A DNA stretch of 64,000 bases, from the NCBI RefSeq assembly GCF_000242455.2, contig NC_019892.1, positions 8,690,744 through 8,754,743 on the forward strand. The letters run 5' to 3'. Below are positions 3,416 to 23,652 of this stretch, in pieces. The position numbers and the translations under genes are program-made. The notes under the pieces were generated by a model. The model made no database searches. It was not told the DNA's origin and saw only the letters and a list, made by a program, of their open reading frames with translations. Origin of the DNA: Singulisphaera acidiphila DSM 18658 (GTDB lineage: Bacteria; Planctomycetota; Planctomycetia; Isosphaerales; Isosphaeraceae). The stretch's first letter is position 1, and every line of letters starts with the position of its first letter.

Positions 3416-4657
3416 TTATTCCGCCTTGTTTTTTAGGCTTGCAATCACCAGTTCCGGCTGACGAAACTCGAAGTCCACCTTCTCACCCTCGCGAACCTGG
3501 AGGCCCCCTTCGAGAACGATCCTGTCGTTCACATCAAGCCCTTTTTTGATAACATAAATGTCATCCTTTTCGTTCTGGACGACGATCTCGCGCTGGTGCA
3601 CCACGTCATCCTTGTCGACGACGTAAACGTACCGCTTGTCGAGAGTCTCGAAGGCCGCCCGCTGAGGGATGACGATGGCGTTCTTCACCACTCGGTTGAT
3701 CAACACGGTGCCGGTCTGACCGTGACGCAGCAAGCGATCCGGGTTCGGAAAATCCGCGCGGAAGGGGATGTTCCCGGTCTCGTTGTTGAATTTGGCCTCG
3801 ATCGCACCGATCTTGCCAGTCTGCTTGAACGTCTCACCGTTTGCCAGCACCAGTTCGATTTGCTGATCCCCTTCATGATGACCCAGGACGGCCATGTATT
3901 CGAGATATTGGGCCTCGGGCACATTGAAATAAACCCACATCAAGCTGTTATCGGACAAGGTCGTGAGGCTGTCCCCCTCCTTGATCAGGCTGCCCAACTG
4001 CTCCTGCAGGCGGTCGACGATCCCGTCGAAAGGTGCTCTGATGTTGGTAAAGTTCAATTCGGCCCCCGCCAGCTCCGCCTTGGCCTGGGCCTTTGCCAGT
4101 TTGGCCTGGAGCAGTGCCACCTCATTCTGAGAGACCACATTTTTCTCGAACAGCTTCTTGGTGTTCTTGTACTCCAGTTGCGCGAGTTGGGCCTCGGCGT
4201 TCTCGGCGTTCAGCCTTGCCTGGTAAAGAACTGGGACGATTTTGAACATCAAATCGCCCTTCTTCACCGCCTGGCCTTCCTTGACCGAGATCGCCTCGAG
4301 ATACCCGTTATCCAAAGCACGGACATTGATATGTCGCCGTGAGTGGATCTGGCAGACATATTCCTGGGTGAGGACGACGGCTTTGGCCTGAGGGCGGGTG
4401 ACCAGAATCTTATGATGCTCCTCGTGGGGCTGCTCCTCGTGCTTGTGAAAATACGACTCAAACTGGCCGACGATGCGTCCTTTCATCTGTTTGGCACCCA
4501 CGCCAAGGTAATCAAGGCACGCGTAAATTTTGGGGGTATTCAGCTGTGGGATGTCCACACGCATCTTATACAGGCCGAAGACCCCGCCGCTGATCAGGGC
4601 GACGACCAGCATCAAGGTGGTCACCGGTCGTCGCATGGCGAACTTAATCGGATTCAT
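3416..4657 (-). CDS. RND periplasmic adaptor (membrane fusion protein) with an RND-permease-like N-terminus
   Basis: Links the inner-membrane pump to the outer-membrane factor. The ATG at 4657 was chosen because AGGAG sits about 8 nt upstream; the frame stays open further upstream without coding character. The protein is 413 aa. Residues 1-66 read like the start of an RND permease: MNPIKFAMRRPVTTLM, a TM helix at 11-31, KMRVDIPQLNTPKIY, then AKQMKGRIVGQFESYF. A His/Glu-rich stretch (HKHEEQPHEEHH, 71-82) follows. A normal adaptor starts near residue 95, with lipoyl half-motif GYLEAISVKEGQAVKKGD, coiled-coil hairpin and second half IRAPFDGIVDRLQEQ. The adaptor role is secure; the meaning of the N-terminal graft is inference. 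Confidence 0.93.
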   Translation of the reverse strand: MNPIKFAMRRPVTTLMLVVALISGGVFGLYKMRVDIPQLNTPKIYACLDYLGVGAKQMKGRIVGQFESYFHKHEEQPHEEHHKILVTRPQAKAVVLTQEYVCQIHSRRHINVRALDNGYLEAISVKEGQAVKKGDLMFKIVPVLYQARLNAENAEAQLAQLEYKNTKKLFEKNVVSQNEVALLQAKLAKAQAKAELAGAELNFTNIRAPFDGIVDRLQEQLGSLIKEGDSLTTLSDNSLMWVYFNVPEAQYLEYMAVLGHHEGDQQIELVLANGETFKQTGKIGAIEAKFNNETGNIPFRADFPNPDRLLRHGQTGTVLINRVVKNAIVIPQRAAFETLDKRYVYVVDKDDVVHQREIVVQNEKDDIYVIKKGLDVNDRIVLEGGLQVREGEKVDFEFRQPELVIASLKNKAE

Positions 4658-5038
4658 CGCAGGGCTCCTGTTCGACTCTTCTCGACTCGACTCTGTCCCG
4701 ATTCCTTGGGCAAGGAACCACGGAGTGGGTTGGAGGAATTCGAGTACGGACGGCAGTCCGACTCGATTCGACGCCAGAGGGGGGGGAGATAGCGTCGGAA
4801 AGGCGCGCGGGATGATCTCCCGACCAAGTCGTTGTCGATCGATCGCAGACGTCCACGGCCGGGTCACGCCGAACCGACGACCACGAGGGACGTCGAACCC
4901 AAGACCTGGGCATTGGCGAGGCACGGTCTGGCCGAGCAGACGATGTCGACTGCACGCCATCCCCCAGGGCGGAGCCTGGACGACGCGTGAAGGACCGGCG
5001 AGACATCAGCCGGTAGTCAGAGATCCATCAGTGGATGA
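4658..5038. other. Intergenic gap upstream of the adaptor gene
   Basis: 381 bases between the small secreted protein gene and the adaptor gene, both on the minus strand. Frames remain open on both strands because of high GC, but none has a recognisable product. It probably holds the adaptor promoter; no consensus boxes were recognised. Confidence 0.4.
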
Positions 5039-5449
5039 TCAACAGCGGAGAGGACAGAGGGAGAAGATCGAGGGGGGGGCGATCAACTGGCGATCGGGGA
5101 CCTTGCGGAAGGAACCAGGGAGTAGGAAGAAAATTCGAGGCTCATCCCGAACATCGGCCCATTCCTGTTCTTCATTCTCGGGAGCCTTGTCCAAAGCATC
5201 GGCCCGATCCTGCTTTTCATTCTTGGAAGGACAGGCATTCATCTGCAGAACGACGTCGGTGGCTATCACTGCGCGAAGGCATGCCTTAGGTTGGCCCGTG
5301 GGGAGAGCGAGATTGTGGCAGAGGCAATCAGGCCGGGACGAGACGGTGGCAAACCCCGGCGTCCGAATCGGTCCAACCAGAATCCCAGCCAGCAGCGCCA
5401 GCAAGGACGTGATCAAGAACGTGGAGACGAGGCTTTTACGGTTGGGCAT
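5039..5449 (-). CDS. Small secreted or membrane-anchored hypothetical protein
   Basis: Not recognised. The ATG at 5449 is preceded by GAGGGG and starts MPNRKSLVSTFLITSLLALL, a good signal peptide or single TM anchor. The mature part has several cysteines (CLCHN, MNACP) and an acidic semi-repeat, NEKQDRADALDKAPENEEQE, suggesting an internal duplication. It lies between a divergent winged-helix regulator and the RND adaptor on the adaptor strand, so it may be an accessory of the efflux locus. An ATG 24 bases upstream is possible. The coding call rests on signal peptide, ribosome site and context only. Confidence 0.5.
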   Translation of the reverse strand: MPNRKSLVSTFLITSLLALLAGILVGPIRTPGFATVSSRPDCLCHNLALPTGQPKACLRAVIATDVVLQMNACPSKNEKQDRADALDKAPENEEQEWADVRDEPRIFFLLPGSFRKVPDRQLIAPPSIFSLCPLRC

Positions 5450-5567
5450 GGCCCCTCGCTTCTCGAATGTCATGATTCGAGGCTCGCTCGCCGGCGTCCG
5501 ACGAGATGGCTTTCTACCAGATCACTTCTGCGATTTCTCCAGCTGGCTGGGTGAAGCCCACAGCCTC

Positions 5568-5582: not shown

Positions 5583-5683
5583 TCGACGTGCGAGGTGACT
5601 CCAAAAATTCCGGACAAGAAATACACGACATCCAAGTCGTAAAATTTATAGCCTCACTATCAACGGAAGTCAAGAGACGGCGT

Positions 5684-6013
5684 ATGGTTGTTCGAACCGT
5701 GGGAACCGGTCCCGAGTGGACATTCCTGAGTAACCACGCCCACGTGCTGCTCTGCATCGCAAAAGAGTCCGAGGTGCGCCTCCGAGAGGTGGCACATCGG
5801 GTGGGGATCACCGAACGGGCCGTTCAGCGGATTGTGGCCGACCTCGAGGAGGGAGGTTACCTTTCACGCTCGCGCGCGGGGCGGCGGAATCGCTACGAGG
5901 TGCACCTGGAACGCCCGCTGAGGCATTCGGTTGAGTCGCACCGCGAGGTGGGCGTGCTCCTCAACCTCATCCTCCGGCCTGACCAACCCGATCCAGAGGC
6001 CCCGGAGAGCTAG
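5684..6013 (+). CDS. Winged-helix (MarR-like) transcriptional regulator
   Basis: DNA-binding regulator of about 109 aa. It starts MVVRTVGTGPEWTFLSNHAH and continues VLLCIAKESEVRLREVAHRV then GITERAVQRIVADLEEGGYL, a clear helix-turn-helix followed by a basic wing (SRSRAGRRNRYEVHLE). The C-terminal helix VESHREVGVLLNLIL probably dimerises. The ATG at 5684 was chosen over an in-frame GTG at 5588 because the conserved part begins there and the extra residues look non-coding. It diverges from the adaptor side of the RND locus and converges on the outer-membrane-factor gene, so it may control the pump. That role is inference. Confidence 0.75.
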   Translation: MVVRTVGTGPEWTFLSNHAHVLLCIAKESEVRLREVAHRVGITERAVQRIVADLEEGGYLSRSRAGRRNRYEVHLERPLRHSVESHREVGVLLNLILRPDQPDPEAPES

Positions 6014-23300: not shown

Positions 23301-23652
23301 GGAGGACCGCGTTACTGATCGCATTGACCTGGGCGACCGCCGCCTCGATCTTGGCTCCGGGCTGGAAGAAGACCTTGATCACGCTCACGCCGGCCAGGCT
23401 CTGCGACTCGATGTGCTCGATGTCGTTGACCGTGGTCGTCATCGCCCGCTCGTGGATCGTGACGATCCGCTTCTCCATCTCGTCGGGCGACATGCCGGGA
23501 TAGGTCCACACCACGGCAACTACCGGGATGTTGATCTCCGGGAAGATGTCGATCGGCATGCGCAAGAGCGTCACGCCGCTCAGAACGGCGATCAAGAGCG
23601 ACATGACCACGAACGTATACGGCCGTCGCAGCGCGAGACGTACGATCCACAT
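20383..23652 (-). CDS. RND efflux permease, AcrB/CzcA-like
   Basis: Proton-driven inner-membrane exporter of 1,089 aa. The start is [20 protein letters not shown] with [22 protein letters not shown]4 carries [19 protein letters not shown] with the Asp pair typical of RND proton relay, and the second half has [17 protein letters not shown]. The length is full. GGAAGG precedes the ATG. It lies 127 bp downstream of a TetR gene and five bases before the adaptor ATG, forming a three-gene operon without an outer-membrane factor, which must come from elsewhere. Substrate unknown. Confidence 0.96.

Follow-up and report, generated by a model that had tools for sequence, protein, structure and literature searches.

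An RND adaptor of Isosphaeraceae whose first 70 residues are homologous to the N-terminus of an RND permease

The adaptor of an RND efflux operon in Singulisphaera acidiphila DSM 18658 carries, as residues 1-70, a segment homologous to the start of an RND permease. The gene lies in the window, the whole 64,000-nt stretch of DNA analysed here (NC_019892.1, positions 8,690,744 to 8,754,743), and encodes a 413-residue protein (P0001) on the minus strand from 4657 down to 3416, with the stop codon at 3416-3418; a preliminary description of this DNA had given the coordinates correctly, with the strand unstated. Homology, donor subfamily, junction, distribution and the presence of the lipoprotein enzymes were computed, and the explanation that we consider likely is that a lipoprotein signal was replaced once by permease codons 1 to ~70, which now export and tether the adaptor.

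An AGGAG ribosome-binding site, recognised from the sequence, is found at 4665..4669 (minus strand), seven bases ahead of the ATG. The ORF remains open upstream of this ATG, the longer version being 514 aa, which could favour an artefact, whether a frameshift, a mis-assembly or a wrong start fusing two genes, or a chance likeness among transmembrane (TM) N-termini. Against this, the orthologues L013 and L020 have a single in-frame codon and then a stop ahead of the identical start, indicating that the 514-aa ORF is not the protein and ruling out a wrong start codon. Residues 84-413 (3419..4408, minus strand) constitute a complete adaptor body with membrane-proximal, beta-barrel, lipoyl and alpha-hairpin domains. 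TIGR01730 (RND_mfp) matched residues 87-395 with 219.8 bits (cut-off 94.9), Foldseek comparison of the body with AcrA/MexA gave E-values down to 2e-30, and the structural model has helices at 143-171 and 177-202, between strands.

As is usual for RND adaptors, the gene adjoins an RND permease gene. This operon partner (minus strand, 3088 down to 2) is of the AcrB type, with 1029 aa within the window, and continues past the window end; it matched ACR_tran with 981 bits, is full-length for the part inside the window and has its own intact TM1 (MFARILYRPALAIV...). The order adaptor to permease recurs in relatives, where the partner permease is conserved next to the adaptor. A gene for a TolC-type outer membrane factor (minus strand, 8247 down to 6406) precedes the adaptor gene and adjoins it in relatives too; the protein bears a lipobox-like LPSC in its N-terminus. 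At its C-terminus lies a peptidoglycan-binding LysM domain (residues 505-553; 22.7 bits against a cut-off of 20.9), which is kept in four relatives and may connect the efflux channel with the cell wall. Upstream of the adaptor, a 144-aa ORF (5039-5473, minus strand) has a hydrophobic N-terminal stretch and lacks a Pfam match; it is 49-72% conserved in three relatives. Adjoining the operon is a divergent gene for a winged-helix (MarR/IclR-like) protein (5588-6013, plus strand), which is also kept in relatives and is possibly the regulator of the efflux operon.

The preliminary description had likened residues 1-66 to the start of an RND permease, and profile searches bear this out. Positions 2-69 of the 1021 in the Pfam ACR_tran profile (PF00873) align with adaptor residues 4-70, scoring 29.3 bits (E 2.5e-7) against the 84-aa N-terminal piece, above the gathering score of 28, and 24.5 bits (E 7e-6) against the whole 413-aa protein. 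The match is confined to residues 4-70; the RP motif, TM1 and porter-domain start of ACR_tran permeases are present in this module (residues 1-70; 4448..4657, minus strand), while the set of 12 TM helices and the two large periplasmic loops are absent. In hhalign, a profile of 14 adaptor N-termini matched a permease N-terminus profile that left out the donor subfamily with a probability of 99% (E 3.4e-18, 72 columns), and an HMM built from 13 donor-type permeases gave 107.6 bits on the window protein. Some 2000 shuffled versions, in which the N-terminal, TM and post-TM segments were permuted separately to preserve TM composition, scored no more than 13.1 bits with this donor HMM, and hydrophobic N-termini of neighbouring genes encoding neither permeases nor module adaptors reached 1.6 bits at most. 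Because the shuffled and control N-termini score so far below the real one, the similarity is homology.

The donor was another Isosphaeraceae permease subfamily (MNPIVFAMRRPVTTLMLVVAL...IFPSLNTPKIYVFLDYVGMSPDQMEG), 68% identical to the window module over ~70 residues. The best non-adaptor matches among 45 Isosphaeraceae genomes were permeases of ~1100-1200 residues with a consensus-like start, MNPIVFAMRRPVTTLMLVVALISGGVLALNKMRVDIFPSLNTPKIYVFLDYVGMSPDQMEGFIVNQLELYFQYVDG (L072-L082 and L183-L193 are examples of the donor type). In a module tree of 77 columns, a length at which finer branching is weak, the adaptor modules group as a single clade (100/99), which lies next to the donors and separate from other permeases. 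The single residue that had been described as missing in DI-PQL is a real deletion, of donor Phe37, and is common to 5/17 well-aligned adaptors. Capture from the operon's own permease is rejected, the module being only 18% identical to it and scoring 4.4 bits with a partner-type permease HMM vs 107.6 with the donor HMM. The permease encoded at 23652, with which the module had originally been compared, is a poor comparison gene, and its 37% identity (E 2e-4) together with the HMM scores rules it out as the source.

A donor-type permease was looked for and not found in the S. acidiphila DSM 18658 genome, nor did this genome contain a second copy of the adaptor 5´ region. The module and the donors show synonymous differences of 0.45-0.67, indicating that the capture is old and that a donor is unlikely to have converted the module recently. 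A total of 26 RND permease genes has been reported for Singulisphaera acidiphila, the most among 920 genomes (PMC10872679), so that sequence for a recombination of this kind was plentiful. In the sister Singulisphaera genome, G001, a 266-residue open frame contains the donor permease start (L185:8283-9080) and is probably a decaying remnant of a donor gene. These data also bear on the idea that the module lets the adaptor associate or interfere with donor-type permeases, as a form of subunit mimicry across pumps. The origin of the module in the donor subfamily and the coexistence of donor and chimera in several genomes would fit such mimicry, yet the chimera is kept where no donor was found (the window genome, G014, G002, G021 and G036), the G001 donor looks reduced to the remnant, and TM1 alone is a small fraction of a permease. 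We therefore regard cross-pump mimicry as very improbable.

Replacement of the usual anchor, as the preliminary description had proposed, is borne out by the orthologues outside Isosphaeraceae (Gemmataceae, Pirellulaceae, Planctomycetaceae, Bacteroidota, Myxococcota and Verrucomicrobiota). A lipoprotein signal starts 72/76 of these rows, the lipobox having been assigned by pattern and, for seven further rows, by eye. Of the other four, three are of the Pirellulaceae type and one is from Schlesneria, and these lack both the lipobox and the module. Three related Pirellulaceae-type orthologues (L101, L109 and L119) read SLPAY, SMASV or SLSTY where the lipobox is expected and appear to have lost it. 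A lipoprotein orthologue on a contig titled Singulisphaera sp. GP187 (MAG; L153) groups with Myxococcota and Poly30 sequences, and the contig is possibly a mislabelled bin. In the window adaptor, residues 1-84 contain no lipobox, so that the lipidation common to, and not strictly defining of, RND adaptors is predicted to be absent.

The junction can be placed because a His/Glu-rich linker, residues 71-83 of the window adaptor (4409..4447, minus strand; predicted to be disordered, pLDDT <50 at 71-80), is common to the lipoprotein orthologues and the chimera. With a slash marking the junction, the alignment reads SAC/NKHEEAHHEGHHHT (L110) and SAC/AKHDEEHHEEAHR (L027) vs YF/HKHEEQPHEEHHK in the window adaptor, the linker starts being SAC/NKHEEAHHEG (L110) vs YF/HKHEEQPHEE, while donors read on as YF/QYVDG past this point. 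The two parts thus join at about residue 70/71, just past the lipobox cysteine of the orthologues. The linker is widely kept after the anchor and varies in length, up to ~60 residues in Pirellulaceae (e.g. L099, L116 and L139); it could bind metal ions. Since the window genome encodes the lipoprotein enzymes Lsp and Lgt and the channel protein has the lipobox-like LPSC, the anchor was swapped in a genome that retains the lipoprotein route; Lsp and Lgt rule out a loss of lipoprotein processing.

A survey of planctomycete adaptors found the same N-terminus across Isosphaeraceae: the donor HMM gave at least 23.5 bits in 19/21 adaptors of the family, from 13 genera, with L022 (13.7 bits) and L029 (6.5 bits) scoring low and a further adaptor, L028, recognised with the adaptor profile only. 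In several genera the module is degenerate (L022, L025, L026 and L029). No chimera was recognised outside Isosphaeraceae among 249 genomes of the class, where the matches, taken collectively, were permease-length frames or short frames ending at module position 72 or earlier. Occurrence in at least 13 genera argues against the assembly or frameshift error that the preliminary description had raised as a way in which its reading might fail. Together with the stops upstream of the start in L013 and L020, the shuffles and the control N-termini, it rules out both such an artefact and a chance likeness, to which we attach a negligible probability.

The number of captures was addressed with trees of module and body. 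In a tree of the adaptor bodies, with the module left out, the chimeras do not form one clade and are mixed, with weak support, with Gemmataceae and Schlesneria lineages; the free tree needs four changes, and a one-clade constraint is not rejected (AU p 0.33). The module clade and the shared adaptor-only residues favour a single capture over several.

Within the module, a TM helix at residues 12-31 (4565..4624, minus strand) is the homologue of permease TM1 and is preceded by RR at residues 9-10. All family adaptors have the hydrophobic stretch, and nearly all have basic residues ahead of it. AlphaFold predicts helices at 3-31 and 41-70 (41-74 in a second model), a disordered linker at 71-80 and a well-formed body, with modest confidence in the module (pLDDT about 50-77). 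On the basis of hydropathy, charge and this model, we infer that the N-terminus lies inside and that the helix is uncleaved. Permease residues 41-70, as in AcrB, fold into a strand, turn and helix that begin the porter domain as its first strand and helix. The corresponding residues of the adaptor (4448..4537, minus strand) are remodelled, and AlphaFold models them with low confidence as a single helix. Adaptor-specific residues, some of them invariant, occupy a dozen donor positions, most between 48 and 72. Among 17 well-aligned adaptors (numbering as in L016, which after residue 36 runs one ahead of the window protein), Pro56 is replaced by Ala in 17/17, Glu60 by Lys in 15/17, Asn65 by Gly or Ser in 17/17 and Leu69 by Ser in 13/17, and donor Asp57 and Glu60 have mostly become basic. 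These shared changes suggest a role for the module beyond that of a bare anchor. Between the two Singulisphaera genomes, the module has a dN/dS of 0.44 and the body one of 0.20, so the module is constrained, though more loosely than the body, which fits an anchor.

According to the explanation that we favour, one capture in an ancestor of Isosphaeraceae would have brought codons 1 to ~70 of a different RND permease gene into the adaptor gene, displacing the lipoprotein signal. TM1 of RND permeases translocates the first periplasmic loop; by itself it is an N-in/C-out signal anchor, and therefore the same segment can export an adaptor body. The RR pair would stay cytoplasmic while the TM1 helix inserts and the downstream part is delivered to the periplasm, and the exported adaptor would then be held by the uncleaved helix rather than by a lipid. 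Its body would link the AcrB-type partner to the outer membrane factor in the ordinary AcrA/MexA manner. Following the capture, residues 41-70 would have shed porter-domain features, probably becoming a membrane-proximal stalk helix between membrane and linker. The preliminary description had gone further in suggesting that the captured helix replaces TM1 in the pump trimer. Its reading holds for the captured permease piece and the replaced anchor; because the partner permease keeps its own TM1, the substitution is not supported. That the adaptor mimics the partner permease, or is stoichiometrically tied to it, is conceivable at most.

The module might also do more than anchor, its TM helix or helix 41-70 contacting the partner permease specifically, within the membrane or close to it, and coupling the adaptor to the pump as in MacA and EmrA, a possibility that we consider unlikely. 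The residue replacements described above, Ala56 among them, and the conservation of the partner permease beside the adaptor count in its favour, as does the contact of the MacA and EmrA TM helices with their transporters, mentioned in passages of PMC4338810 and PMC13328181. On the other hand, dN/dS of the module is about twice that of the body, the degenerate modules would be odd for a binding surface, and the AcrB-type permeases that accompany lipoprotein adaptors of the outgroup (L180 and L182) are 74-83% identical to the window partner, indicating that the partner changed little when the anchor changed. Somewhat more doubtful is the fuller proposal that the captured N-terminus is a pump-specific coupling element, in which both the TM helix and helix 41-70 bind the partner permease, either inside the membrane or at its surface; if true, a lipid-anchored RND adaptor would have been turned into one mechanically coupled through the membrane.

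Compared with known systems, the adaptor resembles AcrA/MexA (RND_mfp, TC 8.A.1) in having a body that is a full member of that family, an adjacent AcrB-type permease and a TolC-type channel nearby, but it lacks a lipobox and has the captured 70-residue permease N-terminus as its anchor. Residues 1-70 are homologous to the ACR_tran donor subfamily and collinear with it from the start codon, whereas the remaining ~1000 residues are missing and porter-domain residues 54-69 are altered. Tethering by an uncleaved N-terminal TM helix would be analogous to MacA, EmrA and HlyD as portrayed in the relevant passages of PMC4338810 and PMC13328181. The transporters of these proteins are of the ABC, MFS or type 1 secretion kinds, while that of the window adaptor is of the RND kind, and the same passages do not mention a permease origin for the helices of MacA, EmrA and HlyD. 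Lipid anchors are typical for RND adaptors and TM helices for ABC and MFS ones, as stated in a recent review (PMC13328181). That parts of transport systems can trade domains has a precedent in alpha-proteobacteria, where the exchange involved membrane fusion proteins and outer membrane auxiliary proteins (Xiao, Wang and Saier 2010, PMC2850547); in that case the helical domain of an adaptor moved into another protein, whereas in the present chimera an adaptor received the N-terminus of a permease. In the literature searched, we found no report of an adaptor anchored by a permease N-terminus.

For annotation, such N-termini can push an adaptor fragment over the permease family cut-off. The chimera indicates that fusing a periplasmic domain to TM1 of an unrelated transporter is one way to acquire a signal anchor, and that membrane anchors can pass between unrelated pump parts. 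What the lipid of RND adaptors is for, and whether their anchor has a role beyond tethering, has been called unclear, since AcrA without its lipid is functional (PMC8277102). A family in which the lipid was replaced by a traceable protein anchor, with close lipoprotein relatives as controls, provides a natural experiment on that role.
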